A stretch of 64,000 bases of DNA from Geothrix edaphica. GTDB taxonomy: Bacteria; Acidobacteriota; Holophagae; Holophagales; Holophagaceae. The stretch spans positions 62,001 through 126,000 of the forward strand of contig NZ_BSDC01000001.1 of assembly GCF_030268045.1 (NCBI RefSeq), written 5' to 3'. A program made the position numbers and the translations under genes. Shown here piece by piece: positions 30,977 through 53,217 of this stretch. Every line of letters begins with the position of its first letter. The first letter of the stretch is position 1. The notes under the pieces were generated by a model, which was not told the DNA's origin, did no database searches, and saw only the letters and a program-made list of their open reading frames with translations.

Positions 30977-33202
<2,226 letters not shown>

Positions 33203-33221
<19 letters not shown>

Positions 33222-33271: not shown

Positions 33272-33646
33272 GAAGGGCCAGAGGTTTGCCCGGCTCTAGA
33301 CGTTTGGTCCAAATCTGGTACCAGGTAAGGGCTTCAAGCCACGTCCTGACTCGCTTGGCGAAGTCTGGTTAGATGCAGATTTGCCCAGAGGGTACCGGAC
33401 CGGGAAGGTTACATCCAAGCACTTGCTTGAACTGCAAGGAGAATGGTGAAACCCTAGGCGGAAATCTTGTCAATTCGTCCCGGGGTGCTCATTATCGACG
33501 AGCAGTTCGTTTGATTCGGGGTAATAAGTAGAAATTAAGGTCGTGGGAAGATCCAAATCAACTTGGCTTGGTAAGGAACTAGTGGGAGATGAGACTTATG
33601 GCCAGATTGTCTTCACGTGTTGGTACTATTCGAAAAATTAAGATCC
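33272..33646. other. left-end non-coding region of the island
   Basis: 375 bp in which base composition falls from GC-rich to AT-rich. It contains a short palindrome CAAGCACTTGCTTG near 33416 and a small GCTC...GAGC inverted repeat near 33487. No tRNA or gene is visible. It presumably holds the promoter of the following defence operon. Confidence 0.4.
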
Positions 33647-37373: not shown

Positions 37374-37518
37374 GGAAATATATTTTGGGAAACTCCTAGT
37401 CTTTTACTTTCTTTCAATCTGATTTATCGATTAAAGCTGTCTTTACCTTCAGGATGTGCGGGTTGAATTATTATGCCTTTTTTTAAAAACACTATTATAT
37501 TGTAAATCTGGAGTTTTG

Positions 37519-38775
37519 ATGAATGCGATTCTAAGAATCTTATTGGCGGATTCTATTTCGACAACCTTCAGGACATTCGGCCAACTCTCGGATGAGCTGG
37601 CTCACGGCGTTCTAGAAGGCTCCGGGGTCGATCGTCACCTGATCAACCTCTTGGAGGATCCTCCTAAACCAAGCTCACGAACACGCCCGGAAAACAGCAT
37701 CGTGCTCAAGCCTCTATCAAGGCTCATCTCTGAGGTGTCAGGTGATGCTCCCGGGACCCGTGTATTTGCCCTGTCTCATTGCAAGAAAGCACCTAAGAGG
37801 AAGGAGAAGGAAGGCGGGGAAAGTGCCCTTCGCTCAAGGTGGGATGGATCTATGGAAGACCTTGAAACCCATCTCGATCAAGTTCATTCATTCAACCTCG
37901 CCCATTTGATGCTGGAGGAGGAAGGGAGGAGAGATGAGGGGGCTGAACCCTCCCTTCGGTATTTCGACCAGAAGGAAGCGCGAAAGGTAATGAGTCTCGT
38001 CGGAGAGCATCAGCACTCTGCTTGGCAATCGGGACAGGAACGGCCCGACAAGGACCACTTGGAATTGATCATCCGTGAGAGCACAGGGAAGAAGCGAATT
38101 CCATGGGAGTGCACGCAGGTCCACCTTGTCATCACGGATTGGAAACCGGCGCTACCCCTTACGCGGAAGAAGAAGGTCCCCGAGGCAAATCCTGTCCTAG
38201 CTGAGGCCAAGTCGGCAGAGAAGGGCGTCTCTGATTCTAGAAAATGGGCTTCAGGTCAGGCACCCCTTCTCCTTGTAAACAAGGACAAGGATGGGAGGGC
38301 TCTCGCATCAAAGAAGCGCTTCTTCCAATTCGAGGGCAACACCAACCCGAAAGCCCAGCTGTCACAGCGGGCTCTCCGTCTTGCGATGACAGTCTTAGAT
38401 CAGCCGAATGCCGAATGGTTCTTGGCTCAGTCGGAGATCTCCAAAATTCCTCGGGCATTCATTGAGTCAGCAAAGCCATGGGCCCTGGTCGCAGTCATCA
38501 AAGAGGCTCAGAGGTTAAGCTCGGAAGACCCAGAGTTCTCTTCCAAGCCGAGGAGGAAGAGCACCGATCAGCGAGAAGTTGAGGAGCTTGCCCAGATCCT
38601 GATCAACCTGGAACCTGGTAAATCACCGAGAGAGTTGGCCGAGCGGCTTCAACACCTCATGCGGAACTTGGAGAAGGCCATTCAGCAGGCCGAGGCCTGG
38701 GAGAGGGTGAATGAGCGCGATGAATCGGGGAAGATCCGCCAGCGGTGGCCGAAAAACAAACCGCGTTCAAATTGA
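37519..38775 (+). CDS. unrecognised island protein
   Basis: 418 residues; the ATG at 37519 has GGAG 5 bp upstream, whereas the 21 residues before it in the longer frame are not convincing. The protein is charged and mostly helical. It has a Lys/Glu-rich segment (KRKEKEGGESALRSR), a VHLVITDWKPALPL strand-like patch and a helical C-terminal third (VEELAQILINLEPGKSPRELAERLQHLM). Composition returns to moderate GC directly after the AT-rich defence operon, suggesting separate origin. I do not recognise a family. Confidence 0.55.
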   Translation: MNAILRILLADSISTTFRTFGQLSDELAHGVLEGSGVDRHLINLLEDPPKPSSRTRPENSIVLKPLSRLISEVSGDAPGTRVFALSHCKKAPKRKEKEGGESALRSRWDGSMEDLETHLDQVHSFNLAHLMLEEEGRRDEGAEPSLRYFDQKEARKVMSLVGEHQHSAWQSGQERPDKDHLELIIRESTGKKRIPWECTQVHLVITDWKPALPLTRKKKVPEANPVLAEAKSAEKGVSDSRKWASGQAPLLLVNKDKDGRALASKKRFFQFEGNTNPKAQLSQRALRLAMTVLDQPNAEWFLAQSEISKIPRAFIESAKPWALVAVIKEAQRLSSEDPEFSSKPRRKSTDQREVEELAQILINLEPGKSPRELAERLQHLMRNLEKAIQQAEAWERVNERDESGKIRQRWPKNKPRSN

Positions 38776-38784
38776 AAGTCCGGC

Positions 38785-38814
38785 CTGTCCGTAGTCTACG
38801 GAGACTACGGACAG
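38785..38814 (+). terminator. perfect 12-bp hairpin after the unknown gene
   Basis: CTGTCCGTAGTC pairs with GACTACGGACAG across a TACGGA loop, ten bases after the stop codon at 38775. Only a mixed T-containing tract follows (CATTGATTTCATTG), so it is a probable but not typical terminator. Confidence 0.5.
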
Positions 38815-39051
38815 CATTGATTTCATTGTGGTTGGAGAGGTCGAATCCAATCCGGTTTGGACGCGCGGTCGTAAGACATATAGATACTGGCCCAATTGCC
38901 GATATATGCGAGTAGATTCCTTCTGGGGTTCGGCGGGGACAACCCGTCGGCCCTGAACCACCCGGTCCTAGCGATCAGGTTTCATGGGGGGCCTGCTTGG
39001 GGGAGGGTTCGTTCAGCGCCTCGGTGCAGGCGTGGCCGGTTAGCTGCATTC

Positions 39052-39322
39052 GTTAGGCGCTCACCATCCAAGTCAAGTAAATTCTTAATCGGCAGAGCCA
39101 AAAGGAGAAAATCATGGGAATCAAGCCGGGTCCAAAAAGAATCGCCAAATCAACAGGTAAGCCAGATAAGCGTCAACGTGACAACAAAGAAACTCCAAAG
39201 AATACGCCATCGCTCAAGCCTCACAAGCACAAGAAGGGCGATTAGATTTGGTGCAACCGCACCTAACAATTCATTCAAGCCGACCCCGCTTCGCGGGCCG
39301 GTTTAACTTCATTTCGTTAGGC
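39052..39322 (+). mobile_element. integron-cassette-like segment with attC site
   Basis: At 39261-39322 there is an attC-like site. Its R'' box ACCTAAC (39261-39267) and R' box GTTAGGC (39316-39322) flank an imperfect inverted repeat around CCCGCTTCGCGGG. A second GTTAGGC at 39052-39058 is preceded by a similar half-site (GGCCGGTTAGCTGCATTC). The interval between the two GTTAGGC boxes would be one cassette, holding a 43-codon gene. No integron integrase is in the window. Confidence 0.6.
39114..39245 (+). CDS. 43-residue basic protein in the cassette-like segment
   Basis: The ATG follows AAAAGGAGAAAATC, a strong ribosome site. The product is 43 residues, extremely basic and hydrophilic (15 Lys/Arg), beginning MGIKPGPKRIAKSTGKPDK and ending PHKHKKGD, with no hydrophobic core. 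It is probably disordered and nucleic-acid binding, or a small antitoxin-like or structural peptide. The stop is 15 bp before the R'' box, as expected for a cassette gene. Confidence 0.6.
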   Translation: MGIKPGPKRIAKSTGKPDKRQRDNKETPKNTPSLKPHKHKKGD

Positions 39323-39365
39323 GTCTCATGCACCTTCTCAACTTGTTGAAGAAAGCGCTGATCCC

Positions 39366-39842
39366 CTATTTTGCCGGGGCTCGTTCCTGAGGGTACATAT
39401 TCAGAGCCTGCGCTGCGGCTCGATAGCGAGCAGCCCGCTCATGGTTTTCTCGATAGATCGCCTGATAGAGCTTCAGCATGTCAAAATCATCATCCCTTTG
39501 TTTAATGCCTGCCGTTTTGAGCCCGTCAAGGCGGCGTTGTTCCCTCTGGATTTGCTCGGCATAATAAGTAACGGCCCTATCAGCGCGATCCAGTTCAGCC
39601 AAACAGGACGCCTGGATTTTTAGCATGGTCTCCGCGTTTGTCGGCTCGACTTTCTTTGGAATCATCCACCAGATACCCGCGCCAAGAGCGCCAAGTAGGC
39701 AGGTGAGAAGAAGAACGGCCTTGGTGACCTCTCGAATTGGGTGTTGTGCCCGGTTCCCATCGCCATCGCAGTAGCCGAAGAACTCTCCAAGGCGCTGGAA
39801 TTTCATTGGCGCTGCGCTGGGTTGGAGTCGTACGGGTGTCAT
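39366..39842 (-). CDS. single-span membrane protein of unknown function
   Basis: 158 residues. The ATG at 39842 has GGAGA 8 bp upstream. One membrane helix (residues about 43-62, AVLLLTCLLGALGAGIWWMI) is followed by a periplasmic or cytoplasmic helical region rich in Arg, Gln and Glu (coiled-coil-like, LAELDRADRAVTYYAEQI). It lies opposite to the cassette gene. No family recognised. Confidence 0.55.
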   Translation of the reverse strand: MTPVRLQPSAAPMKFQRLGEFFGYCDGDGNRAQHPIREVTKAVLLLTCLLGALGAGIWWMIPKKVEPTNAETMLKIQASCLAELDRADRAVTYYAEQIQREQRRLDGLKTAGIKQRDDDFDMLKLYQAIYRENHERAARYRAAAQALNMYPQERAPAK

Positions 39843-39892
39843 TGGAATATCTCCTGAGACTTCTACGTCGCTGATGGTTAAGTTTCATAAAC

Positions 39893-40816
39893 TCATTGCA
39901 ACCAATTGATCCTGGTAGAGCCGTAGAGCGTCAAAGCCCCATGTGCGAACCGAGCTGTGATCATGTGAAGCCCTACCAGGGTTTCGACCGACGCGTATCC
40001 ACCCGCATGAACGTAAGCCACAGGCACCTTCTGGTTCGATAGAACCTCGAACACGAAGGCCTCGCGCTTCTCTATGTCTGGGATCTTCAGCCGCAACGGA
40101 GGATTGGGAGTTCCGGAGAAAACATCCATTCCCGCGACGTAGAGACACGCTTGAGGCTGGAATTCATCAATCACCGTCGGCAATTCCTTGCGGAGCGCCT
40201 GCAGGTAGAGCCTTGCGTCAGGCTCAACTCTGAAGTTCTTGAAGAGATGCGGCGTATCTGGGTGCCCGAAGTCCGAAGCGTGCCCGTGAAAATCGAAGAG
40301 GAACAGATCGGGATCATCGGGAAATGAGGCTACCGTGCCATTGCCAAAGTGAGCGTCGAGATCTAGGACGAGCACCCGGCGGAGTCCCTTAGACCGAAGG
40401 TAGTGGACCCCAATCGCGATGTCGTTCACTGGAGACAACGCTCCTCCGTGGTCCGGGTAGGCGTGATGGCCACCACCTCCGAGCATTCCGGAGACTCCAT
40501 GCACCAAGGCCGAATCGATAGCGTCCAGGAATGCCCCGAGGACTGAAAGCGATACATCGATCCAACTCGGGAACCACACTCCCCCCGAGGAAGCCAATTC
40601 AGGGGGTTCACCGCTCCGCAGAGCTCCGATGTATTTGGGGGTGTGGACGAGGAGAAGATCCTCGATCCTGGCCGATCGTGAAGGCGTGAGTGTCGCGATC
40701 CCCTCCGCCTTGGCACGTTCTCCAGTGACGATGTGTCGGCGGTAAACATCCTTTTCGGCAAGAGGGCCGAAGTCGGGAAGGAACAGATGAAGCGTTTTTA
40801 TCAAACGATTCTCCAC
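39893..40816 (-). CDS. histone-deacetylase-family (AcuC-like) amidohydrolase
   Basis: 307 residues with the arginase/deacetylase fold. Active-site features: G-G-G-G-H-H-A-Y-P-D-H-G (catalytic His pair), zinc ligands in LDLD-A-H-F-G-N-G-T and in AGMD-VFSGTP, and C-terminal H-A-G-G-Y-A in place of the GGY loop. Bacterial members deacetylate acetyl-polyamines, acetoin-pathway proteins or other acetyl-lysines; the substrate here is unknown. It is cotranscribed with the DUF6896-like gene (5-bp gap). Confidence 0.85.
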   Translation of the reverse strand: MENRLIKTLHLFLPDFGPLAEKDVYRRHIVTGERAKAEGIATLTPSRSARIEDLLLVHTPKYIGALRSGEPPELASSGGVWFPSWIDVSLSVLGAFLDAIDSALVHGVSGMLGGGGHHAYPDHGGALSPVNDIAIGVHYLRSKGLRRVLVLDLDAHFGNGTVASFPDDPDLFLFDFHGHASDFGHPDTPHLFKNFRVEPDARLYLQALRKELPTVIDEFQPQACLYVAGMDVFSGTPNPPLRLKIPDIEKREAFVFEVLSNQKVPVAYVHAGGYASVETLVGLHMITARFAHGALTLYGSTRINWLQ

Positions 40817-40821
40817 CTAGG

Positions 40822-41277
40822 CTAAGCGCCGTTGCTGGGCTCAGGGTAATAGAGGACGTAGCCCGAAAACCGAAGCGAACCGCTGTCCACGGCTTGCTTG
40901 AATATGCTTTCGAAATCAGCTACTGAGGAGAACCCATACGAGTGAAGCCTATCGCCAGCAAATCGCAAAAGCCGTCCAGAATCGAAGCCGTTAGTTTGTC
41001 CTTCAAATCCGAAATCAAAATCCACAGGGCTTCCTGGCAGTTCCACAAAGCAACCAAACCCGTGTTTGAAGTAAGGAACGCCACCGGGAAGGACTCCCTT
41101 CTGGGGAATCTCATACCTGGACCACTCTATGTTGCTTGATGGTTTCGGTAATCCTCCCTTCTGCATCAAGGCGACGGCTGAATTGACCGCGCGGGCATAG
41201 TCCTGAATGAGGAGGTTTAGATGAGTGTCCATGGGGTTCCCGTTCAGAGTGTAGGCTTCGCCTCTCTCAACAGCCAT
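40822..41277 (-). CDS. DUF6896-like protein
   Basis: 151 residues (136 if started at ATG 41232). The stretch PYFKHGFGCFVELPGSPVDFDFGFEGQTNGFDSGRL resembles DUF6896, a family of unknown function often found near toxin-immunity or phage-related genes. Assignment is from pattern memory. It is directly upstream of the deacetylase gene. Confidence 0.55.
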   Translation of the reverse strand: MAVERGEAYTLNGNPMDTHLNLLIQDYARAVNSAVALMQKGGLPKPSSNIEWSRYEIPQKGVLPGGVPYFKHGFGCFVELPGSPVDFDFGFEGQTNGFDSGRLLRFAGDRLHSYGFSSVADFESIFKQAVDSGSLRFSGYVLYYPEPSNGA

Positions 41278-41451
41278 CCCAATAAAGCCCTGCTATAGTC
41301 GCCCGCAGCCTATGAGGTGCCCTGATGGTCGCGGAAATCCGCAGGTTGGGGCGTGCCAGGAGTGCAAGGCGTCGTGAATATCCAGGTAGGGGAGAGCAGA
41401 GCTTCCCCATCTCCTTGGGCAGATCGCCCAAGCAGCCTGGAGGATCGAATC

Positions 41452-42045
41452 ATGGCCATCACCCAGCCCATCACCCCCAAGAAGGACCTGGCACCCAAGG
41501 CTCCCAACGCAGCCCCCGACAAGCGGACGCCCCTGCTGCTTGTGACCAAGCCTGGGAAGAAGGTCGAGATCTCCTACTACCTCTTCGAGGGAAGCGAGGA
41601 TACCAAGGACAACCGGCTCGCCCGAATCGTGGCCACGAAGGCGGCCAATCGGGTGCTGAAGTACCCCAACGCGGAAGACATCCTGAAGGACGAACTCCAG
41701 CCGGGCTTCGTAAAGCTGGCCTGGGAGAACGGGTGGACCCTGGTGGAGGTCATCAAGAAGACCGCCGAGGAGAGCGCAGCGCTGAAGCTGATCCCGAGGT
41801 GGAAGAAGGCCAAGGCCGCTCGGACGGGTCTCCATGATCGTGCGAAGGCCCGCGTGGTGAGCCTCTTCAACCCCAAGGCCCCTGCCGGGGAGATGGTGGA
41901 CCTTCTCATCACTCAGCTCACCGAGCAGCGGGATTCCCTGACCCGCACCCTCACCAAGTACGAGCAGGAGCTTGGGCGGCGGGATGATGGCACTCTTCGG
42001 TTCCGACTGGAGGAGAAGGTCAAACCCGAAAAGGTGAAGTTGTAG
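41452..42045 (+). CDS. unrecognised basic protein
   Basis: 197 residues; a GGAGG box lies 7 bp before ATG 41452. Residues 25-110 look folded (RTPLLLVTKPGKKVEISYYLFEGSEDTKDNRLARIVATKAANRVLKY), and the C-terminal 60 residues form a charged helix (LLITQLTEQRDSLTRTLTKYEQEL). No family recognised. It opens a small plus-strand group with the next two genes. Confidence 0.55.
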   Translation: MAITQPITPKKDLAPKAPNAAPDKRTPLLLVTKPGKKVEISYYLFEGSEDTKDNRLARIVATKAANRVLKYPNAEDILKDELQPGFVKLAWENGWTLVEVIKKTAEESAALKLIPRWKKAKAARTGLHDRAKARVVSLFNPKAPAGEMVDLLITQLTEQRDSLTRTLTKYEQELGRRDDGTLRFRLEEKVKPEKVKL

Positions 42046-42185
42046 CTCAGAAGGGGCGCCACCTTGGTCCCCAAAAACCCCCTTCGATGCTCCCAGCCCA
42101 ACCCAACCCCCTCAGGGGCGCCAAAAGCGCCCCTGAGCCCGTTTTGGAGGGCAGCAATCCACCACCTAAGGGCCGATTCACCGGC

Positions 42186-42812
42186 ATGAACGAGGACCGA
42201 CTGTACCGTTCACTCCTTCGGGCGGGCCTGGCTCCCTTTGAAGCGCTGGTGGCCATCCTCCAGGAGGAATCTCATGTCGCCTACAGGGTGGCTCTTCTCG
42301 CCCATCTAATGCCCCGAACCCTATCCCAGGAGGCCCTCCAGGAACTCCTGGCGAGATTTGGCATCCATCCTCTTTCTTTGGCCCTGCAATTCCAGGATCG
42401 ACGACGGGCCCTGAGGTTCCTCCGAAGGTTTGAGCAGCGGGATCAATTCATCCAGTGGATTGGCCCGGGAGGAAAGTTGCTCATTCAAGGTGACGCCGAG
42501 GTTCGCATCCTTCCTCCGGGCCTCGTCCTACGCGGAGATTCGTGGATCACGGACTGCCCCAACCTGGCTGACCTCGGAACCGGGCTCACATCCCTGTTCA
42601 GTCGCATCCACGTTGAGCGATGCGAATCCCTACAACGGCTCCCAGACGGACTGGAGACCCATTACCTCGGGGATGTCCAGGTCATCGACTGTTCGAGGTT
42701 TGTCGGTCTTGGCGTGGGCTCACAAATCCGTGGGCGTTTGATGGTCCGTGGATGCCCGTTATTCCAGGTTGCTACTACACAAGGAGCCCTCGATGTGGAC
42801 TCGACTTTGTAG
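42186..42812 (+). CDS. unrecognised protein with short LRR-like C-terminus
   Basis: 208 residues from ATG 42186. The N-terminal 110 residues are helical, with many Leu/Arg. The C-terminal half has repeated beta-turn units of the type 'VxDCPxLxxLGxG' (ITDCPNLADLGTG, VERCESLQRLPDG, VIDCSRFVGLGVG, VRGCPLFQV), suggesting a small solenoid. Function unknown. Confidence 0.5.
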   Translation: MNEDRLYRSLLRAGLAPFEALVAILQEESHVAYRVALLAHLMPRTLSQEALQELLARFGIHPLSLALQFQDRRRALRFLRRFEQRDQFIQWIGPGGKLLIQGDAEVRILPPGLVLRGDSWITDCPNLADLGTGLTSLFSRIHVERCESLQRLPDGLETHYLGDVQVIDCSRFVGLGVGSQIRGRLMVRGCPLFQVATTQGALDVDSTL

Positions 42813-43080
42813 AAGGCCTCACTCAGATGAGCCCCTCCGCCCCTGGGAAGAACGGGCTTTGGAGCAGGCCAAGCTTGGGGTCTTCACTCCGTATGTGGAA
42901 TTGAACTTCTCCTACCTTGTGTTGGATAGCCCACGAAGCGATCTCCTCCTTCGAGCGTTCAAGGTGCTCATGCGGGACAAGGAGGTATCGCTGAACTTCC
43001 AAGCCTATTGCCGACACCATCAGCTGGGCGGGTTGACCAGGCATGACCGGATGAAAGCCAAAGGCGAAGCGGAAGATTGA
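42793..43080 (+). CDS. small unknown protein overlapping the previous gene
   Basis: 95 residues. AAGGAG lies 6 bp before ATG 42793, inside the end of the preceding gene (20-bp overlap), which suggests coupled translation. The sequence is basic and helical with a YLVLDSPRSDLLLRAFKVLM segment. No family recognised. Confidence 0.5.
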   Translation: MWTRLCRRPHSDEPLRPWEERALEQAKLGVFTPYVELNFSYLVLDSPRSDLLLRAFKVLMRDKEVSLNFQAYCRHHQLGGLTRHDRMKAKGEAED

Positions 43081-43108
43081 GCTAAGGTCGATGGCCGCTC
43101 GATCACCG

Positions 43109-43495
43109 CTACAACTTCAGTGCTTTCCAGAGCTGAATGGATTGGAAGTGCTCGTCACGCTCTAGGGGTACTCGGGTCAACACGCCATCGATCTTGATGG
43201 CCCTCCTGACACCTAGTAAACGCATGTACGGTATGACACCCCATCGCCCTCCAGGATCAGAGGAATGGTCCCTGGAGAATCCGACAAAATTACCAGACTG
43301 ATAGTCCGCAGCCGCTGCCCAAAAGGAGTAGCTTCCAGCGAAGAGGTGGAGATGCACCACCTGATCTTCGATGACTCTTGAGGCCTTTGGCAGGTTCGTC
43401 CAATCCGGTAGACGGAGTAGGTCCGGTTCCGAGAGTAGGGTTTGGGAGGAATTCAATCGGACCTGGGTGAGCCATAGGCCGGGATGCTGGGGCAT
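43109..43495 (-). CDS. unrecognised small protein
   Basis: 128 residues, minus strand. Contains VVHLHLFAGSYSFWAAAADYQSGNFVGF, a beta-rich segment, then RWGVIPYMRLLGVRRAIKIDGVLTRVPLERDEHF. It looks like a compact globular protein without signal peptide. I do not recognise it. It is divergent from the AlbA_2 gene. Confidence 0.5.
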   Translation of the reverse strand: MPQHPGLWLTQVRLNSSQTLLSEPDLLRLPDWTNLPKASRVIEDQVVHLHLFAGSYSFWAAAADYQSGNFVGFSRDHSSDPGGRWGVIPYMRLLGVRRAIKIDGVLTRVPLERDEHFQSIQLWKALKL

Positions 43496-43611
43496 GCGGT
43501 CTCCCTGAGGACCAATATCCCCAGATCCCGGTCCGGATTCACCGAGGCCCCTGATCGGAAGATAATTACCGAGGCATTCAACCCATCAAGGCTCGCCTAC
43601 ATGGAGATTCC

Positions 43612-44799
43612 ATGAGCACTCCCCTAGACCAGAAAAGCCTGGAGGAACTGGACGCGACGGATCTTCGCCTACTCATCGAGGACCAGGTCTCCGAGTGCAA
43701 AACCATCGACTACAAGCGCACCCTCCCTGGCAGGACAGATGCGGATCGCAGGGAGTTCCTGCACGATGTCAGTTCGTTTGCGAATGCATCCGGTGGACAC
43801 CTTCTCTTCGGGATGAAGGAGGAGCGAGGGATCGCAATGGAGATTCTTGGCCTCCGTGACATCAACCCGGATCAGGAGATCACTCGACTGGAGGAGATGC
43901 TTCGGAGCGGCCTTCGCCCGCGAATCTACGGACTTCAAATGAAGGCGGTCCTCATCGAAGAAGGTTCATGGGTGCTCGTCCTGCGTATCCCCAGGAGCTG
44001 GAACCCACCACACCAAGTCACCTTCCAATCGGACATGCGGTTCTCTGCAAGAGGCCTGACAGGGAAATACTTGATGGACGTGGATGAGCTTCGATCAACC
44101 CTGGAGGTCTCGGATGTCTTGGGAGAGAGGGCTCGAAACTTCCGCCTGGAGAGGATTGCCAAGGTGAAGGCAGGAGAGACACCCTCTGAGGAAATAGATG
44201 GTGCTCATATCGTGCTGCACCTTCTCCCACTGTCGGCCTTCACGGGGAAGAGAAGGCTGGACTTCGCTCGGGGAGCTGGTCACTGGCCCTTCGATCCGCC
44301 TCCGTTCATGGGTTCGGGCTTCTCATCTCGATACTGCTTCGAAGGCTACGCTTTCACCTCCGGCTATCCCAAGGTAGACACCTATCGCCTTTACTTTCGC
44401 TCGGGTGCGATGGAGTACGTCGATTTCCGCCCCTCCCACATTGGCCAGAATGATCGCTTCGACCGGATGCTTCCATCGACCGTGATAGAGAAGATCACAC
44501 GGCAGAACCTGGAGCATGCCCTGATAACTGCGAAGACTTTGGAACTCGAACCGCCTGCCTTCCTCTCACTCAGCATGGCGGGTGCGAAAGGTTGGATATG
44601 GGCGGCTGGAGATCGTTTCCTCCAGCGGGAAGTACCCTTCGACCGTGATCCCCTGCTTTTCTCGGAACAGTTCGTGGAGAGCTTCGATGGCGACATTGAA
44701 GGACTCCTCAAGGCTCTCGTCGACCCCGTTTGGCATGCAGCAGGTTGGGAGCAGTCCCCGAATTTCATCGAAGGGAAGTGGGCACCGGACCACCGATGA
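43612..44799 (+). CDS. AlbA_2 (Schlafen-type) domain protein
   Basis: 395 residues. The N-terminal 165 residues show the AlbA_2/divergent AAA-4 pattern: E-C-K-T-I-D-Y-K-R, EFLHDVSSFANASGGHLLFGM and VLVLRIPRSWNPPHQV...FSARG. The C-terminal 200 residues are unassigned. AlbA_2 domains occur in Schlafen-like nucleases and in putative regulators, often inside defence islands. The E...DYK placement is compatible with an RNase-type active site, but that is inference. ATG 43612 follows a GGAGATTCC sequence. Confidence 0.75.
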   Translation: MSTPLDQKSLEELDATDLRLLIEDQVSECKTIDYKRTLPGRTDADRREFLHDVSSFANASGGHLLFGMKEERGIAMEILGLRDINPDQEITRLEEMLRSGLRPRIYGLQMKAVLIEEGSWVLVLRIPRSWNPPHQVTFQSDMRFSARGLTGKYLMDVDELRSTLEVSDVLGERARNFRLERIAKVKAGETPSEEIDGAHIVLHLLPLSAFTGKRRLDFARGAGHWPFDPPPFMGSGFSSRYCFEGYAFTSGYPKVDTYRLYFRSGAMEYVDFRPSHIGQNDRFDRMLPSTVIEKITRQNLEHALITAKTLELEPPAFLSLSMAGAKGWIWAAGDRFLQREVPFDRDPLLFSEQFVESFDGDIEGLLKALVDPVWHAAGWEQSPNFIEGKWAPDHR

Positions 44800-45430
44800 T
44801 CCTTCAGTCCCTTCATCCACGCATTCTGGTCTCAATACTCATCCGGGAGCATCAAGGTCCCAACGCCCCCTGATCTGGTCACGGGGAACCCGCTGGTCCA
44901 AACAACCCAGGATTCCCCTTTGTCTGCGCATAACCCCCTCAAGACAGCACGGAAGGGGCTCGGCCGGGGGGATGGAGGGGGAAGGCATCCGATGGGCTTC
45001 GACGAGCAGTCCCAGTCAAGACGAGTACAAATGAAGGTTGGGTCGATTAACACAAAGGTTGTTATTGATAAGGAATTATTGAACTGAGAACATTATGCAT
45101 CTATCTGCTGTTCATAATCCTTCGGTGGAATTATTGAAACGAAGCATTGAGGCCATAGGTCGACCTGAAGTTGATGAGCAGAGAGCTTTATTTGGGATAA
45201 TAGTCTTTTGGGATAATAGTCTTTATTGGGATAATAGTATTTGCCCCCTACAACGAGATCATAGTTCTCCATATTGTTCCACTATGTCGCCGTAGTGAGT
45301 GGCAAAGACTATTATCCCATTTCAAGATGAACTGGAGACTGGAAACTGGAATCAAACCTACGGGGTAAGTTTCAATGATTTAATAATATGAAATGAAAAT
45401 TCTCATATCCCACTTACGGAGATATGAGCA
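44800..45430. other. long non-coding region with iteron-like repeats
   Basis: 631 bp without a credible gene. The first 250 bp are GC-rich. From about 45050 the sequence becomes AT-rich, carries the 16-bp repeats annotated separately and runs into an AT-rich stretch (45370-45420) just before the next gene. This is the arrangement of a plasmid-type origin or a multi-site operator. Confidence 0.5.
45192..45320 (+). repeat. 16-bp iteron-like repeats, three direct and one inverted
   Basis: The unit TTGGGATAATAGTCTT occurs at 45192-45207 and 45208-45223 (back to back). It recurs with one change (TTGGGATAATAGTATT) at 45226-45241, and inverted at 45305-45320 (AAGACTATTATCCCAT, 15 of 16). The units lie 111-240 bp upstream of a 376-aa gene. 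Tandem spacing of 16 and 18 bp suits cooperative protein binding. Confidence 0.85.
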
Positions 45431-46561
45431 ATGAATGCAGCCACAGAACATGCCCTTACAGTAGACGGATCGCCTGTCTTATACACGATACCTGAAGAGA
45501 TCAAGGGTAGATATCGCAGTTTTTATAACGATACGTTTATAAAACAACTAACCAAGAATACAGTTAAAAAATATCGTCCTCGATTCAACTTCTGGAGTTC
45601 TCGAGACCCAATCGTCATCGCGGATTTCGATGCCAAACACCTCCCCGCATCTTTTCAATCTTGGGAGAAATTCCGGGAGCACCTTCGGGATCGATTCAAA
45701 GGTGTTGGCTTCGTTGTTCCGTCACCTAGTGGTTACGCCAAGGTCTTCTTCAAGGTGAGAATGCCTGTCGGCTTGCAGATGAACGTCAAGATCGCTCACG
45801 CCACACTCCGTACCCTCCTAGAGGGGACAGGATGGGAGTTCGATACTGAGTCGTCTGCTTGCCAGTACTGCTTCATGGACGAGCCCATGTATTCCCTCTT
45901 CGCCAGGGGGCGGGTTTTCGATGGCCTGGAGCTGGTCTCTCCCTCTCAACCGGAAGTGACGGCCAATGAGGCGAAGAAGGCGTGGACGGTGTACGAACTC
46001 CCCAAACCAGCCATTGAGGCCATCCAAGAGGCTTTCTTGCTCTCGACAATCCGCAGTCCTGCCATCAAGGAGGTCATGTGGTTCCTGGTCCGCTGGGTTT
46101 GTAGCAGCCCCAAGCGGGCCATGGAAAGCATCGGGATCGCTCAAATGGCCGTGATCGCGAGCGCGGAGGCGAGCCTGGGAGCCAAGTTTCCACAAAAGAA
46201 CGTGAGCCTGGCCCTATCCGCTTTGAAGAACATTGGCCTTCTTGAGGTGGTCGATGAGACCTACATCATCGGCCAGAGGAGCAAGCTCTACCGGGTCAAG
46301 GGTGACCTCGAACTGATATGTGCAGGCCTTTTCGCCACTTTCGGGAATAAGGACATCAAATTGCCAGACTCTGTAGAGGATGGCACTTGGCATCACACCC
46401 TGCTGGAGGTGATCCCCCAGTTCTATCGCAGGGGCAAGGATTACCAAGGGTTAAAGGATTGGTTTATGGCGTTACCGGGGAGTGATCTGGGAGATAGGTG
46501 TGGGCAAATGAAGTCAATATGGGAATGGTTTGAACGCAAGTGGGGGCAAGAAGATTCATAA
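45431..46561 (+). CDS. possible replication-initiation protein
   Basis: 376 residues. No family match I can name. The N-terminal half includes a GVGFVVPSPSGYAKVFFKVRMP segment and SSACQYCFMDEPMYSLF. The C-terminal half has winged-helix character (VSLALSALKNIGLLEVVDETYIIGQRSKLYRVKGD). The order (AT-rich DNA, 16-bp direct repeats, then this gene) resembles a rep gene behind its iterons. Initiator function is inferred from context; an autorepressing regulator is the main alternative. Confidence 0.45.
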   Translation: MNAATEHALTVDGSPVLYTIPEEIKGRYRSFYNDTFIKQLTKNTVKKYRPRFNFWSSRDPIVIADFDAKHLPASFQSWEKFREHLRDRFKGVGFVVPSPSGYAKVFFKVRMPVGLQMNVKIAHATLRTLLEGTGWEFDTESSACQYCFMDEPMYSLFARGRVFDGLELVSPSQPEVTANEAKKAWTVYELPKPAIEAIQEAFLLSTIRSPAIKEVMWFLVRWVCSSPKRAMESIGIAQMAVIASAEASLGAKFPQKNVSLALSALKNIGLLEVVDETYIIGQRSKLYRVKGDLELICAGLFATFGNKDIKLPDSVEDGTWHHTLLEVIPQFYRRGKDYQGLKDWFMALPGSDLGDRCGQMKSIWEWFERKWGQEDS

Positions 46562-46647
46562 TAATAGATTTTTAAAAATGCAAAACTAATATATAAAATT
46601 GCATATTATAATAAATTATTACTCATAAATATGGCGGTATCAATACG

Positions 46648-46983
46648 ATGAAATATCCGAACCACCCAACCCAGGACCGAATTGCCCTAAGCACACTCCT
46701 CGCAGCCCTCGGCGATCCCACCCGACTAGCGATCGTGAAACAGTTAGATCATCTGGGAGAGCAAAGTTGCGGTTCCTTCGGGCTCCCAATCTCCAATAGC
46801 ACCCTTACTCACCATCTCAAGGCGCTTCGAGAGGCCGGCGCGATAATGACCCGGATACAGGGGACCAAACGGTTCGTCTCACTTCGCCGAGATGACTTGG
46901 AAATGCGTTTCCCCGGCCTCCTCCTGGCCATCCTGAATGCACCACGAAAAGTACGAGTCCCGCAAACGGCTAACAACCTATGA
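46648..46983 (+). CDS. ArsR-family transcriptional regulator
   Basis: 111 residues with the winged helix of ArsR/SmtB proteins: LLAALGDPTRLAIVKQLDHL, then SNSTLTHHLKALREAGAIMTRIQGTKRFVSLRRDDLEMRFPG. There is no cysteine-rich metal site (single Cys42 only), so metal sensing of the classical type is unlikely. It overlaps the next gene by 4 bp, so the two are probably functionally paired. Confidence 0.88.
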   Translation: MKYPNHPTQDRIALSTLLAALGDPTRLAIVKQLDHLGEQSCGSFGLPISNSTLTHHLKALREAGAIMTRIQGTKRFVSLRRDDLEMRFPGLLLAILNAPRKVRVPQTANNL

Positions 46984-47546
46984 CCGCGAATGCTCTTGCC
47001 CATATCGTCGATGATTGGACCGCACGTTCCGTAGTGGCCTCTCGGTTCCTCATCCGCCTCTACCGAACACTAGGAGATGAAAAGCAACTCAACCATGCGG
47101 TTCAGGCGGGTGCCCCATCGGAGGAGCGAGCCCAGCGCCTTGGGCTTTCTGACCGCCTCAAGGCCATGCGGGACATCTTCGGGGATCAGGACGAGGAGAA
47201 ACTGCTCGGAGAAGCTAGAGCCTGGCAGATCCTCGTGGAAGCTCAGGCTGGCGTCTGTGCGTTCCATGCGATGACGGGAGATGACCCAGGGAAGGCTAGG
47301 GGATTGCGTGGCGCCAGGACCGCTTCGACGAAAGCCCTGGACCGCGCAGTTCACGGATATCGGGTTGCATTTCCTGATGTGATGGCCGAAGCAGGCATCA
47401 GGTCGGCACTCGAAGGCGCAGCCAGCACCTGCGTCCGAGGATTCATGGAGGACCTTGAAGGAGATGGCCCAGCTGAGGACCGCGAGGTGCTTCAGGAAAG
47501 CATCTATCGAGACATCCTGGGCGCTCTCACCAAAGCCACCGAGTAG
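46980..47546 (+). CDS. unknown helical protein paired with the ArsR regulator
   Basis: 188 residues, almost wholly helical (LGDEKQLNHAV, LLGEARAWQILVEAQAGVCAFHAMTG, LEGAASTCVRGFMEDLEG). No signal peptide or membrane helix. The ATGA overlap with the ArsR gene shows coupled translation. No family recognised. Confidence 0.55.
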   Translation: MTANALAHIVDDWTARSVVASRFLIRLYRTLGDEKQLNHAVQAGAPSEERAQRLGLSDRLKAMRDIFGDQDEEKLLGEARAWQILVEAQAGVCAFHAMTGDDPGKARGLRGARTASTKALDRAVHGYRVAFPDVMAEAGIRSALEGAASTCVRGFMEDLEGDGPAEDREVLQESIYRDILGALTKATE

Positions 47547-47671
47547 GCACGATCAACCTGGGTTCATTCCCTGATTTTTGGACTCCGCAGGGTGCGAATA
47601 CACGGTGCCAGCCTCAGGCTCCTGATGGGAAAAGGGGTCGGGGCAGGGCCCCCGAAGCCTGGGGTGCTGGG

Positions 47672-48718
47672 ATGGCACGAGAGACATCATCAAACACCAC
47701 TTCGCTGGTGGACGGGTTGCGCTTTGATCGGGATGGAATCTATCGGTATCGATTTATGCACGAGGGGATGATCCACCAAGGCAGTACTGGATTTAGTGAT
47801 TTCATGGGTGCAACGCAGCGCCTTGGTGAAATTCGCCAAAGGTTGAGATCGGAACGACGGGATCAAGAATCTCAAGCCAAACCCGCGCCGACATTTGGGG
47901 ACGCCTACTACTTCTGGCTAAAGGTCATGGGACCTCGTGTGTCCTGGAAGTCCGTCCAGATGATGGAAAGCCACTGGAGACAAACCTGGCATCAGTGGCG
48001 CGATCTGGATCTAGAAGGTCTTCAACCGGTCCTTGATGCCCACTACAACAAATGCCGAACCAAGTACGCGCAGTCCACGATGGCCGCCCACTTCAACCGG
48101 ATCAGCGCCATCCTGAAATTCTCGGGTGAGCGGGGGCTCCACCGGATCGAATTCGATCTCCCCAAGATCAAGGTCCCCCACACACCGAAGTTGGTGCTCA
48201 CAGAGGATCAGGTGAAAGTGTTTTTCGCTCACCTGGACCAATTCGCCAACCTTCACCAGAGCGTGATGGTGAGAACGATGTATTACCTAGGCCTTCGGGA
48301 ACAGGAATCCTATCGGCTTCGGTGGTCCTGCTATGACGATAAGCACCAGACCTACACCATCGATCAACAGAAAAGCGGAGAGGTCTCAGTGCTCCCGGTA
48401 GTGGAGGAGATGGCGGATTGGTTTGCTCGACTCCCGCGTTTGGGTACCTACATGTGCCCCCGGGACAAACGGGACGAGCCACATGGTTCGAAGTACACCA
48501 CCCGCCCCTTCAAGCGAGCTGTCGCAGAAATGGGACTCCCCAGCACCTTTTGCCATCATCGCCTCCGAGCAACACTGGCCACAGTTCTGGTTAAGAAAGG
48601 GGTGCCGCTGGAAATGATCCGGAAGCTTCTTCGACATGCGAGCGTTGAAACCTGCGTGGCCTGGTACATCGAGACAGATATTCAGGACATGCGTAGTGCG
48701 CTGGCGAAGCTCTCATGA
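47672..48718 (+). CDS. tyrosine recombinase/integrase, copy 1
   Basis: 348 residues. N-terminal Arm-type beta domain (GLRFDRDGIYRYRFMHEGMI), a SAM-like core-binding domain (about 75-165), then the catalytic domain with Arg in YLGLREQESYRL, H-H-R-L-R and nucleophile Tyr in CVAWYIETD. Related to copy 2 at 51246 over its full length, including the N-terminal domain. It is not at an island edge; it may mark an older element nested in the island or help excision. Confidence 0.9.
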   Translation: MARETSSNTTSLVDGLRFDRDGIYRYRFMHEGMIHQGSTGFSDFMGATQRLGEIRQRLRSERRDQESQAKPAPTFGDAYYFWLKVMGPRVSWKSVQMMESHWRQTWHQWRDLDLEGLQPVLDAHYNKCRTKYAQSTMAAHFNRISAILKFSGERGLHRIEFDLPKIKVPHTPKLVLTEDQVKVFFAHLDQFANLHQSVMVRTMYYLGLREQESYRLRWSCYDDKHQTYTIDQQKSGEVSVLPVVEEMADWFARLPRLGTYMCPRDKRDEPHGSKYTTRPFKRAVAEMGLPSTFCHHRLRATLATVLVKKGVPLEMIRKLLRHASVETCVAWYIETDIQDMRSALAKLS

Positions 48719-49348
48719 ACTGCTTGGCTCTCCCTCGCGATGGATGACTACCTCGCCTCGGAAGAATCTCCGAAGGTCTGTCTCTTTGATTGGCTTGAGC
48801 CGAAGGGCAGACCTAAGAAGAAGTTCGAAGACTTCCTTGCTGCCGGTCGAATAGGTCGGAACACCTGGGATGGCTTCTCGGTGGGCATCGCGGAACCTCT
48901 GCTCGATGCCACCTGGGGCTCCGGTCCTCCCGCAGAGTCCGAACTCGCTAAGGTTCATGCCAAGGTCTTCGAGCATCGCAAGGCGCCAGCGTAAACGAAG
49001 AGATTGAGCGACCCGGTAGTGAGGAAGGCCAAGACGCCGCTGTAATTCGATAGTCGTTAGTCGGCTGCCAACCGTGAGCCACCAGGCCGATAGGAATACC
49101 ACCTTCAAGGGAGTGTGGAGGCCGTCGAGAAGGGTTCCCGAGGTGGGCGAGAACTGGGCACGGCACTTCCGGCAAATCAGTCGCCGACCCCGGGATGGAC
49201 GCCATGGAGGCTCCGTTGGGTAGCAGTGTGACCCCGGGCAACCAACTCCTTGGGGCCAGCGCAGCTCCTCCAGGTAGGCCTGACAGGCCTCATCGTTGGG
49301 AAATCGGCGCTCGAACTGCTTGAGGCTGAAGAGCATGGCATTAACCAT
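48713..49348 (-). CDS. IS1595-type zinc-ribbon protein without DDE domain
   Basis: 211 residues. The N-terminal 120 match the IS1595 transposase head: RRFPNDEACQAYLEELRWPQGVGCPG, then ICRKCRAQFSPTSGTLLDGLHTPLKVVFLSAWWL, and an HTH (TIELQRRLGLPHYRVAQSLRLRWRLAM). The DDE (ISXO2-like) catalytic domain that should follow is missing; the last 80 residues are unrelated. It is either a truncated transposase or a domesticated DNA-binding protein. It converges on recombinase copy 1 with a 6-bp overlap. The first zinc-ribbon pair is degraded (CPGSHC). Confidence 0.65.
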   Translation of the reverse strand: MVNAMLFSLKQFERRFPNDEACQAYLEELRWPQGVGCPGSHCYPTEPPWRPSRGRRLICRKCRAQFSPTSGTLLDGLHTPLKVVFLSAWWLTVGSRLTTIELQRRLGLPHYRVAQSLRLRWRLAMLEDLGMNLSEFGLCGRTGAPGGIEQRFRDAHREAIPGVPTYSTGSKEVFELLLRSALRLKPIKETDLRRFFRGEVVIHREGEPSSS

Positions 49349-49534
49349 TCCTACCTGTGGTGGATACAGGGGGCGGGAGAAGAGTCGCCTTCATTGGTGG
49401 CACCAACAGCCTATTATGAAACGGCATAAATATAAATAAATAGATGTTTTAGACAGATAAACATTCTGATTTCAGGTGCTCAAAGCTTATCAGGCCCAGC
49501 GCGGGATCACCCCGCCCGCTGAAAGGGCTTGGAC
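49349..49534. other. AT-rich spacer before the transglycosylase-like gene
   Basis: 186 bp with an AT-rich patch at 49410-49475, the likely promoter region. A small GCGGG-ATCAC-CCCGC hairpin lies at 49501-49515, close to the start codon. I see no match to preQ1 riboswitch consensus sequences. Confidence 0.35.
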
Positions 49535-50752
49535 ATGGGCTATACCTGGATCCCCTCTGGGGCGACACCGGCGTTCCTGCAATGGCACTTGTGGGTTCGC
49601 GAAGGGAAGGGCCGAAGGATTGAATACCGGCTGGACGCAGGATCGGTGATCCACGATCCGCGCACTCAGGCTGCCCGCCTGGGAGAGGGATTCACCCTTA
49701 GGCGCATCGGACCTTATTTCCACCGCGACACCATCCTCAGGAACCATAGCGAGTGGTGGATGGCCAGTGCGCACCACCTGAAACCCGGAGAGGGCAGATT
49801 CGCCGCCGATGCTGGGGTGAAGATGCTTTGCGACTCTGGCGGGTGGCAGATCAAGTCGGGTGCTTCCGATTACGTGGACCCCCACAAGGTCATCGAGGTC
49901 TACAACGCCTGTGCTGACGCTGGGATGGCCCTTGATTACCCCCCTCGTAGGGATGTGGACACCACCTCAGAGGTCTTTCGCATCCTGGCGAAGATTCAGA
50001 AAGGGCACAACGGCATCTTTCTGGCCAAGAGGCGAGAGGGCTTGGAGCTGATCAATGTAGCCCACGGTGTCACGGGCGATCAGTGGCGTGCTTGGATCGA
50101 GTCCGTCAATGCTCCAGCTGGGTTTCAAGGCTGGGCGATCTCCGAGGACTCGAATGCCGACCCCCACTGCATGTTGAGAGGGGCCGCCGTCCTCTACCGT
50201 GACTTTGGCGTACGCGAGCAGCGGGTGCATCTCTTCGGGATCAGCGGTCCACTTCAAATTCCAGTGGCAGCTTGGCTTGGGCGCTACTTCCCGAACCTGA
50301 CTTCGGATTCCAGCAGCTGGCAGGGAGGGCGGTTCGCCTCGTACTTGTACAACAGCCAAGGTGCCTTGCGGACCTTGAAGATTGGCCGCAAAGACCCAGA
50401 GGTCGCAGATGGCGATGCGCTGAATGACTATTGCCAATGCGAGTTCTGTTCCGTCCTGGGGACCTTCGGCGCGTACCGAGCCCCCGGAGCCTACTCGGCG
50501 CTCAGTGCTCACTCTGTGATCGCCATCCAGTCTTCAGTCGCCTTGTGGAATGACCTCGCGACCAAGGTCGGAAGGGCAGAGTACGAGCGTGAAATCCGAG
50601 ATCGCTTCAGCTATCCCGGCCGTAAGCGAAAGATGGATCGGCCAGCCAAGATCATCCGGCAGCTGGACTATCTCGAAGAGGCGATGGCCAAGGGGCCGGA
50701 AGCGGCTGATCGGTTGATGGCAAGGTCGCGCGGCCTCAAAGGCGCGGCCTAG
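49535..50752 (+). CDS. tRNA-guanine transglycosylase superfamily protein, DpdA-like
   Basis: 405 residues from ATG 49535 (AAAGGG box upstream). TGT signatures in order: LCD100-S-G-G-W-Q, the base-binding acidic loop; VDPHKVIEVYNACADAGMALDYPP, like the VDP...MALDE region of TGT; the GFQGWAIS loop; a candidate nucleophile Asp258 in T-S-D-S-S-S-W; and a zinc site C300-x-C302-x2-C305 with His326. The divergence from housekeeping Tgt and the island setting suggest a DpdA-type enzyme that inserts 7-deazaguanine into DNA. No preQ0 synthesis genes are nearby. Confidence 0.75.
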   Translation: MGYTWIPSGATPAFLQWHLWVREGKGRRIEYRLDAGSVIHDPRTQAARLGEGFTLRRIGPYFHRDTILRNHSEWWMASAHHLKPGEGRFAADAGVKMLCDSGGWQIKSGASDYVDPHKVIEVYNACADAGMALDYPPRRDVDTTSEVFRILAKIQKGHNGIFLAKRREGLELINVAHGVTGDQWRAWIESVNAPAGFQGWAISEDSNADPHCMLRGAAVLYRDFGVREQRVHLFGISGPLQIPVAAWLGRYFPNLTSDSSSWQGGRFASYLYNSQGALRTLKIGRKDPEVADGDALNDYCQCEFCSVLGTFGAYRAPGAYSALSAHSVIAIQSSVALWNDLATKVGRAEYEREIRDRFSYPGRKRKMDRPAKIIRQLDYLEEAMAKGPEAADRLMARSRGLKGAA

Positions 50753-50756
50753 ATCT

Positions 50757-50918
50757 ATGGCTTCGATCTTCGACGGGTCAGGACACCCGTCCTCCTGGAG
50801 GGCTGCGTTTGTAAGCGCACGCGGTCCACCTGGACTCAGACAGAACTGCAATTCCACTCAGACCCGCTTAGTAACCCAACAGGATCCGGGCTGTCCGGAC
50901 CAAGGAGGAAAGACATGA
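50757..50918 (+). CDS. possible 53-residue leader ORF
   Basis: An ATG 4 bp after the transglycosylase stop opens a 53-codon frame that ends exactly in an ATGA overlap with the next small gene. Ribosome site weak. The product is polar with three Cys and no recognisable fold. Only the precise overlap argues for it. Confidence 0.25.
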   Translation: MASIFDGSGHPSSWRAAFVSARGPPGLRQNCNSTQTRLVTQQDPGCPDQGGKT

Positions 50919-51091
50919 AATACCACAAGAAACTCAACCCCATCACTGCACTCCGATCCCTCGAGAGTGAAATCCGGGATTACCGTTGGATGGCCAAGCA
51001 GCTCGAAGCCGAACGGGACTTCATCGCGAACTTTCTCGGTGTTCAGCCTCGTGACGATCGCGGCCGGTTTCTCTCTCTCCGTCGGAAATGA
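50915..51091 (+). CDS. 58-residue small protein with strong ribosome site
   Basis: AAGGAGGAAAGAC directly precedes the ATG, among the strongest ribosome sites in the window. The product is a basic amphipathic helix (ITALRSLESEIRDYRWMAKQLEAERDFIANFLG) with an Arg-rich tail ending FLSLRRK. The size and charge suit an excisionase-like or small regulatory protein, and it sits just before recombinase copy 2, but no HTH is evident. Unrecognised family. Confidence 0.6.
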   Translation: MKYHKKLNPITALRSLESEIRDYRWMAKQLEAERDFIANFLGVQPRDDRGRFLSLRRK

Positions 51092-51173
51092 TGTTCATGG
51101 CTGTTGAAGGGTAGTGAAAGCCGTGTGGATCTGCCCACGCGCAAGCCGCTCGACTGCTCGCTACTGGTGCCGG

Positions 51174-51205
51174 GGCCGCCCCCCTGTGGGAAAAGGGGGG
51201 TGGCC
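51174..51205 (+). terminator. GC-rich hairpin upstream of recombinase copy 2
   Basis: GGCCGCCCCCC pairs with GGGGGGTGGCC (one G-T pair) across a ten-base loop. It lies between the 58-aa gene and recombinase 2. No T run follows, so it could be an attenuator or recombination-related structure instead of a terminator. Confidence 0.4.
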
Positions 51206-51245
51206 TCGACCTGCCTTGTGCAGCCCCATGGCCCTGGGGTGACTG

Positions 51246-52322
51246 ATGCCCATCCAGGCGAAGAAGGATTCCGGTCTCAAGGATGGACTTCGGCTGCGCC
51301 GAGGCATCTACCACTTCCGGTTCATGTATCACGGGAAGTTAAAGACTGGTTCGACAGGCTGCCGGGACCTCAGGTCTGCCAAGGCCTACCTGCTGAAGCT
51401 GCGTTCAGCACTGGCCTTGGAGTCCATCGATGTCCGGACGATCTCAAAGGCCACCTTCCAGGAGGCCTTCGACCTGTACCTGAAGGTTCAAGCTCCGCGA
51501 CTAGCAGCCAGGACGGTTCGCCTCTTCCGCAGCAATCACCAGCACCACTGGTCGCACTTTCAAGATGCACCACTCAAGGATATGCAGATGCACCTGGACG
51601 AACTCTTCCCAAGGCTTGCAGCGAAGATGAAGCCTGGGAGCCAGAGGCTCGTCTTCGCAAGGCTGAGAAGTGTCCTTGAACTCGCCCGGAAGCGTGGGCT
51701 TCACAACACACCACTGGAGTATCCCACTATCGATGTGCCCAGAGACCCCAAGCAAGTGCTTAGCGAAGAGCAGGTAGAAGTCTTCTTCATTCATGTGGAT
51801 CGGATCGGAAGCCTTCACGCCCGGATCATGATTCGCAGCCTCTTCTACCTTGGCCTTCGAGTGTCCGAGGCCCAGCGCCTTCACTGGGACGACTACGACG
51901 AAGATGAGATGACCTATCGCATCGACGAACGCCAGAAGAACGGGAAGATCCTCTACCTGCCGGTCCTTCCCGAGATGGCCGAATGGTTCGCAAAGCAGCC
52001 CCGAAAGAAAGGGGAGCTGATGTGCCCGGGACGATGGGGGTGCCACAACACCAGGTACACCGATCTCGTGGTCAAAGCCGCTTCGAAGTCCATGGGGCTA
52101 GAGGTACCAATGACTCACCATCGCCTGCGGGCTAGTCTCTCGACTTCGCTGCTTCGAAGAGGGGTTCCCCTTGCTGTGGTTCAGCGTATCCTTCGCCATG
52201 CTGATCCTGCCACGACCACCAAGTACTACTGGGAAGAGGGCCTACAAGACATGCGGGAAGGATTGATGGTGCTTTCCAAGGTTAACGGCTCACCACTGGA
52301 TGAGGATCGCCATGTTAGCTAA
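51246..52322 (+). CDS. tyrosine recombinase/integrase, copy 2, next to attR
   Basis: 358 residues. Arm-binding N-terminal domain (GLRLRRGIYHFRFMYHGKLKTGSTG), SAM-like core-binding domain (about 70-160), catalytic residues Arg in YLGLRVSEAQRL, H-H-R-L-R, and nucleophile Tyr in TTTKYYWEE. Complete. The stop codon is 229 bp from the right junction, the usual place for the integrase that made the insertion, so it probably recognises the clpA core. Paralogous to copy 1. Confidence 0.92.
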   Translation: MPIQAKKDSGLKDGLRLRRGIYHFRFMYHGKLKTGSTGCRDLRSAKAYLLKLRSALALESIDVRTISKATFQEAFDLYLKVQAPRLAARTVRLFRSNHQHHWSHFQDAPLKDMQMHLDELFPRLAAKMKPGSQRLVFARLRSVLELARKRGLHNTPLEYPTIDVPRDPKQVLSEEQVEVFFIHVDRIGSLHARIMIRSLFYLGLRVSEAQRLHWDDYDEDEMTYRIDERQKNGKILYLPVLPEMAEWFAKQPRKKGELMCPGRWGCHNTRYTDLVVKAASKSMGLEVPMTHHRLRASLSTSLLRRGVPLAVVQRILRHADPATTTKYYWEEGLQDMREGLMVLSKVNGSPLDEDRHVS

Positions 52323-52550
52323 GGCGGCCAAAGGCATGGGGCCCCGCCCTCTGGACCCAGGCCCTCGCCATTGGACCCCCCGGCGTCTATCCCTGATGCC
52401 AGGGCCTCCCGTCAGGCGCCGGGCGGGATGTCGCCTCATCGAACGACGAGGGGGAAAATTCACGGACTTCTTCCTCAACACCTGGCTCGGGACCCCACAA
52501 ACCCACGGAGATAACTCGAAGAGGCGCCAAAACCCTGGGTTGGCGGATTC

Positions 52551-52571
52551 CCAGGAGAAGCACACGGTGGC
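52551..52571 (+). other. right attachment core (attR)
   Basis: The same 21-bp block as at 32555-32575. To its left lies island-specific sequence (52323-52550, no gene seen); to its right clpA sequence begins at once. A second identical 20-bp stretch follows after one mismatch. Confidence 0.75.
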
Positions 52572-53217
52572 GCGGCTCATCGGCGCGCCGCCCGGGTACG
52601 TGGGCTACGAGGAGGGCGGCCTGCTCACCGACGCCATCCGCAAGCAGCCCCATGCCGTGCTGCTGCTGGACGAGCTGGAGAAGGCCCACCCGGACCTCTT
52701 CGGGATCCTGCTCCAGGTCATGGATCACGCCGCCCTCACGGACAGCCACGGCCGCAGCGCCGACTTCCGCCACACGGTGCTGGTGATGACCACCAACGTG
52801 GGCGCGCGCGAGCTCTCGGCCCGGCAGGTGGGCTTCGCCGAGGTGGGGGCGCGGCGTTCGGCCAAGGGAACCATCGAAAAAGCCTTCAGCCCCGAGTTCC
52901 GTAACCGTCTGGATGCCATCCTCCAGTTCGCGCCCCTGGGCCGGCCCGAGATGGAGCGCGTGGCGGACAAGCACCTGCGGGAGCTGGAAGCGCAACTGGC
53001 CGAGAAGTCCGTCACGTTGACCTGCACGCCCAAGGCCCGGGCCTGGCTGGCGGAGAAGGGCTATGACCCCGCCTTTGGCGCCCGGCCCATGGCGCGGCTC
53101 ATCGAGCGGGAACTGCGGCGGCCGTTGGCGGAGGCCATCCTCTTCGGGCCCCTGGCCAAGGGCGGCGAGGCCACCGTGGATCTCAAGGACGGCCGGCCGT
53201 GCCTGTCTTTCGGCTGA
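52551..53217 (+). pseudogene. displaced host clpA 3' fragment
   Basis: Codes for the last 222 or so residues of ClpA (from QEKHTVARLIGAPP to CLSFG), about 90 percent identical by eye to the corresponding part of intact clpA, without gaps. It has no start or N-terminal domain of its own; the frame merely stays open upstream into island sequence. It is the original host 3' end, cut off by the insertion. It keeps the aat start codon inside its last 19 bases. Confidence 0.9.

Follow-up and report, generated by a model that had tools for sequence, protein, structure and literature searches.

What does a lone guanine transglycosylase gene do on an integrative island of an acidobacterium? DNA deazaguanylation in bacteria is known from multi-gene dpd clusters, and orphan DpdA proteins come mainly from phages. 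The window analysed here, a stretch of 64,000 nucleotides from Geothrix edaphica (C1:62001-126000 of a 3.16-Mb genome in 6 contigs), contains a gene that a sequence-only reading had described as an orphan DpdA-like transglycosylase on a mobile element. By examining the protein's motifs and predicted fold, its relatives in phages, the island that carries it and the queuosine pathway of its host, we ask which substrate this enzyme would act on, and where its base would come from.

The transglycosylase gene and its predicted fold

The gene is an open frame that begins with ATG (there is also an in-frame TTG 6 bases before it) and translates into a protein of 405 aa. The gene and its motifs are, in coordinates of the window:

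49535-50752, + strand: orphan gene for a 405-aa guanine transglycosylase of jumbo-phage type (profile, tblastn and predicted fold)
49832-49849, + strand: DSGGWQ, residues 100-105, base-binding motif; D100 aligned to the Asp of DSGSFQ in archaeal TGT 1iq8
50063-50065, + strand: His177 in NVAHG (alignment with TGT and DpdA proteins)
50306-50308, + strand: Asp258 in SDSSSW (257-262), candidate catalytic nucleophile, aligned to the DSASY Asp of archaeal TGT
50432-50449, + strand: CQCEFC, residues 300-305, the TGT zinc site together with His326 at 50510-50512 (motif and alignment)
49349-49534, no strand: AT-rich intergenic region separating the transglycosylase gene from a divergent zinc-ribbon gene (sequence scan)

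The full set of TGT-superfamily signatures announced by the sequence-only reading was recovered, with D100, D258, C300/C302/C305 and H326 at exactly the residues it had given. Invariant in all 11 aligned members of the phage-type clade described below are D100, S101, G102, G103, Q105, D134, H177, H232, D258, C300, C302, C305 and H326; for D100, D134, D258, C300, C302, C305 and H326, equivalents in 1iq8 could be aligned. The gene has a GC content of 60.6% and a GC3 of 72% (flanking host genes have a GC3 of 91-94%), and a scan of the upstream intergenic region (49349-49534) found no sigma-70-type site.

An AlphaFold2 model built from a 24-sequence alignment (pLDDT 72, pTM 0.77, residues 264-299 poor) predicts the TIM-barrel fold of the TGT superfamily for the Geothrix protein. 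VIA-align matched the model to TGT structures with Z scores of 22-25 across some 300 residues, among them 1j2b (Z 24.9, rmsd 3.2 over 299 residues). In a Foldseek search of a viral library, the top entries are as long as the NCTB and GR11A phage proteins, with Motura fourth and nt-1 DpdA2 seventh (5e-10). The DNA-guanine transglycosylase 7ui4 is not among the best 50 matches listed by Foldseek or VIA-align, which has no bearing either way.

Relatives among jumbo phages

As a single sequence the protein has no match in Pfam, PHROGs, NCBIfam (even at E 0.1-1), PADLOC or the PDB. Searched by tblastn against 50,697 phage records it matches 18 (best E 7e-18, 22-30% identity), all of about 195-258 kb and all from jumbo phages; reciprocal searches with two of the phage proteins led back to these 18 records and no others, and plasmid records gave no tblastn match to the Geothrix protein. 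A profile built from the phage and viral-contig relatives only, leaving out the two Geothrix rows, gives the Geothrix protein 138 bits; 500 shuffles of that protein reach no more than -1.6 bits, and bacterial Tgts, nt-1 DpdA2, 9g DpdA and one bacterial DpdA no more than 29.5 bits. The membership of the Geothrix protein in a small clade with proteins of Achromobacter phage Motura, of NCTB and GR11A/GR7B and of Pseudomonas putida and Xanthomonas jumbo phages is well supported by these sequence comparisons. In the tree, the pair of Geothrix proteins forms a deep, isolated branch (length 1.77) with weakly supported neighbours. Scans of IMG/VR added a few more clade contigs (L011-L013, L015) and a larger related group that mostly has Gln at position 177, and further scans with clade members as queries returned the same contigs again.

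Three better-known assignments were tried and rejected. The housekeeping Tgt was excluded by a whole-genome PF01702 scan, which recovers only C1:707721 (503 bits) and not 49535-50752, and by the failure of TIGR00430 to match the Geothrix protein, in agreement with the strong divergence from Tgt that had been read from the sequence. The bacterial DpdA model NF041059 matches nothing in the whole genome at E up to 10, and no PHROG family, 9g-type DpdA (phrog_887) and DpdA2 (phrog_10773) included, matches the protein at E up to 1. The label "DpdA-like" thus holds for the superfamily and the phage-type relatives and fails for NF041059, phrog_887 and phrog_10773. In the profile comparison that had been proposed alongside it, the protein matched no DpdA family model; searches with the clade profile recovered archaeal TGT 1iq8 (E 8e-11 to 5e-12), Z. 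mobilis TGT and, weakly, 7ui4 (E 0.0033 and 0.029). Among eight other clade members, matches to PF01702 (5/8), TIGR00432 (6/8), NF041059 (2/8) and phrog_10773 (4/8, best 8e-5) are all weak; phrog_10773 is the family of nt-1 DpdA2 itself (704 bits). Judged by sequence, "DpdA" fits the Geothrix protein in a broad sense only, and its clade is separate from 9g, nt-1 and bacterial DpdA.

With the Motura / NCTB / GR11A / PpuM / PhiXhv type the protein shares the full catalytic and zinc motifs and the HG motif, but those jumbo-phage proteins are 456-568 aa long, mostly with a lysine-rich C-terminal tail, and stand in genomes with QueC, whereas the Geothrix protein has 405 aa and no tail, is chromosomal and orphan, and is 19-25% identical to them over the alignment. 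The nt-1 DpdA2 has the same fold, IFHG and DSSTH motifs and weak profile similarity (19.7-26.9 bits); unlike the Geothrix protein it contains no CxCxxC by pattern. In 9g DpdA the nucleophile motif CDSSSW and the motifs VHGFG and FHAG are similar, yet this protein has 317 aa, no CxCxxC and an insignificant score against the clade profile (1.4-2.2 bits). Bacterial DpdA of dpd islands (NF041059, 7ui4) is likewise bacterial, island-borne and of the TGT superfamily, with VAHG in 7ui4, but the Geothrix protein gives no NF041059 match, and dpd partners are missing from its surroundings. Bacterial Tgt and archaeal TGT (PF01702, 1iq8) have the barrel, the catalytic Asp set and the zinc site in common with it, and differ in that Tgt has FDCVLP at the nucleophile and Gln in place of His177.

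DNA or RNA as the substrate

The company kept by the phage relatives bears on the substrate. In six representative jumbo phages, QueC is above the family cut-off in all six and a PTPS/QueD-type match is present in five, three of them weak; for scale, one phage QueC searched by tblastn matches 328 of the 50,697 phage records, a comparison that is approximate because tblastn is less sensitive than a family search. In Motura the transglycosylase gene has a queC/gat-like pair on one side and queE/folE on the other, a cluster that has been interpreted as making deazaguanine and incorporating it into DNA (PMC7824862). Vibrio phage nt-1 DNA contains dPreQ0, DpdA of phage CAjan has been shown to be essential for base insertion, and phages with dpdA only are thought to take their precursors from their hosts (PMC6884629). 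The literature searched holds no biochemistry or measured DNA chemistry for any member of the jumbo-phage clade. In several jumbo phages a small unnamed gene lies 3' of the transglycosylase gene (L004:7169-7645, L005:7296-7700, L007:7119-7724, L008:7253-7705, L009:7193-7657); the L004 copy belongs to phrog_18980, and no counterpart was seen in the Geothrix island.

It is conceivable that the protein is a paralogue of phage origin acting on tRNA or some other RNA, into which it would insert preQ0 or preQ1: its closest solved structures by both profile and fold are tRNA TGTs, and its zinc site, DSxS nucleophile motif, fold and catalytic residues are those of archaeal tRNA TGT. We consider this unlikely, since the Geothrix protein is without the C-terminal tRNA-binding part (405 versus 582 aa, the match stopping at residue 360 of 1iq8), the host already has a Tgt, and the clade is accompanied by phage preQ0 genes, and QueA, QueG and QueH are reported by Hutinet et al. 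to be absent from the viruses that they analysed. A further point against an RNA substrate is His177, a position with Gln in each tRNA TGT inspected (1iq8, the Tgt of Geothrix and those of three other acidobacteria) and where 9g DpdA, nt-1 DpdA2 and S. Montevideo DpdA (7ui4) have His. Because a bacterial DpdA from another acidobacterium (L135, G102), above the NCBIfam cut-off, has Gln at this position, His177 is suggestive and not diagnostic of DNA-type enzymes. By eye, the gene of that DpdA (L135:622-2763) lies downstream of a QueD-like gene.

The integrative island

The transglycosylase gene lies in an integrase island of about 20 kb (about 32555-52550) inserted inside clpA. From about 33 to about 52 kb the GC content is 43-60%, down from about 70%. 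The main features of the island are:

30969-33221, + strand: clpA, left junction; its final 705 bp, starting at 32555, recur as a second copy at the right end
33617-37373, + strand: Lamassu-type defence operon (LmuA with Cap4 nuclease domain, LmuC/MC4 middle component, LmuB ATPase)
47672-48718, + strand: tyrosine recombinase 1 (domain searches)
48713-49348, - strand: IS1595-type zinc-ribbon protein, 211 aa, divergent (domain search), conserved in G. terrae
51246-52322, + strand: tyrosine recombinase 2, adjoining the right island end (domain searches)
52551-53217, + strand: displaced clpA 3' end adjoining aat, right junction

The right junction has in common with 32555-32575 an identical 21-bp core, CCAGGAGAAGCACACGGTGGC. 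The island carries its own 705-bp clpA 3' end, which shares about 86% identity with the displaced copy, so that clpA is restored and the displaced end left beside aat. Among 41 Geothrix genomes a second 705-bp copy occurs only in the source genome and in G. terrae (G017). In 35 of the 39 others a single clpA-aat match covers nearly all of a 900-bp query (the remaining four have none that long), and clpA is one uninterrupted piece in nine of ten empty-site loci examined, the tenth (L145) aligning in pieces. By the GC drop and the duplicated clpA 3' end, the island proposed from the sequence is borne out. No 12-mer is common to 48600-49560 and either island end, as separate att repeats of a smaller element between the integrases might have provided.

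In the zinc-ribbon protein the IS1595-type zinc ribbon is the sole recognised part, with a marginal match to a transposase model; it is possibly a DNA-binding regulator. Elsewhere the island encodes a histone-deacetylase-family protein (39893-40816, - strand, PF00850) and a Schlafen/AlbA_2-domain protein (43612-44799, + strand, PF04326), and Rfam gave no match at gathering threshold within 30000-56000.

The presence of Lamassu-type genes with a Cap4 nuclease domain in the same island raises the question of whether the transglycosylase acts on incoming DNA, or cooperates with the Lamassu nuclease in marking self and non-self, instead of shielding the island. The two sets of genes are separated by about 12 kb and several genes. 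Moreover, in G. terrae the island has retained the transglycosylase gene, but nothing there matches the Lamassu segment (a portion of the left arm is also unshared); the two are therefore not obligate partners, and we regard a role tied to Lamassu as very unlikely.

The gene itself is rare: it was found in two of the 150 nearest genomes and, as clear copies, in two of 396 acidobacterial genomes, where a third genome (G358) gave a weak partial match. Outside the phylum, one close-relative scan of genome contigs gave G. terrae alone. A different, 300-aa TGT-superfamily protein is encoded in another Geothrix genome (L136:1105-2004; G022, C60), with TIGR00449 at 97 bits and a weak NF041059 match, next to a protein weakly similar to DNA helicase.

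Such rarity (clear copies in only two genomes), together with the gene's orphan state and deep isolated branch, would fit a stranded phage gene with no current function, carried passively between two integrases. Against this stand full-length frames in both species, 95% protein identity with G. terrae SG184, the intactness of every catalytic position, and a dN/dS of 0.14 (0.025/0.181) between the two copies; the gene is under purifying selection, and we find a functionless passenger quite improbable. Between the source genome and G. terrae the right arm (44.9-53.9 kb) shows 91% identity, and dS is lower for the transglycosylase gene (0.18) and recombinase 2 (0.13) than for clpA (0.31) and aat (0.38), which fits sharing more recent than the split of the hosts.

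Host pathway and proposed function

No dpd or preQ0 gene was found beside the transglycosylase gene among all neighbours scanned, as the first description of the locus had it. That description had also suggested a search of the genome for queC, queD, queE and queF; in family searches for host pathway genes, QueC (231 bits) and QueF (121 bits) were detected on another contig, and preQ0 or preQ1 could come from there. The host's own housekeeping Tgt is at C1:707721.

DNA deazaguanylation with a host-made base is in our judgement the probable activity of the Geothrix transglycosylase, on account of the clade to which the protein belongs and the company which that clade keeps: clear relatives are found solely among the base-exchanging enzymes of giant phages, so that some guanines in DNA are probably exchanged, through the island's enzyme, for a similar base made by the host. 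The DNA (not RNA) substrate, the identity of the base and the protective role are what we infer. The enzyme would be a zinc-containing, barrel-fold transglycosylase of the clade that probably serves 7-deazaguanine DNA modification in some jumbo phages. Judging from TGT enzymology, Asp258 would attack C1' of deoxyguanosine in DNA and expel guanine, and preQ0 or preQ1, bound through Asp100, Asp134 and His177, would take its place. As the island has no synthesis genes, the base would have to be supplied by the queuosine pathway of the host. The modified guanines would most likely shield island DNA, host DNA or both from restriction, as with phage DpdA. Apart from the resemblance to tRNA TGTs, the missing lysine-rich tail counts against this reading; most phage relatives (445-568 aa) have one.

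We hypothesize that the locus is a one-gene DNA hypermodification module, in which an acidobacterial integrative island, having taken up a jumbo-phage-type guanine transglycosylase, draws on the host queuosine pathway to place 7-deazaguanine in DNA with no dpd or synthesis partner, a proposal for and against which we hold the case to be evenly balanced. If the enzyme is active, a single captured gene fed by a tRNA-modification pathway would suffice for DNA hypermodification in a bacterium, a clade without a name in current family libraries would be added, and the jumbo-phage clade would become testable outside phage.
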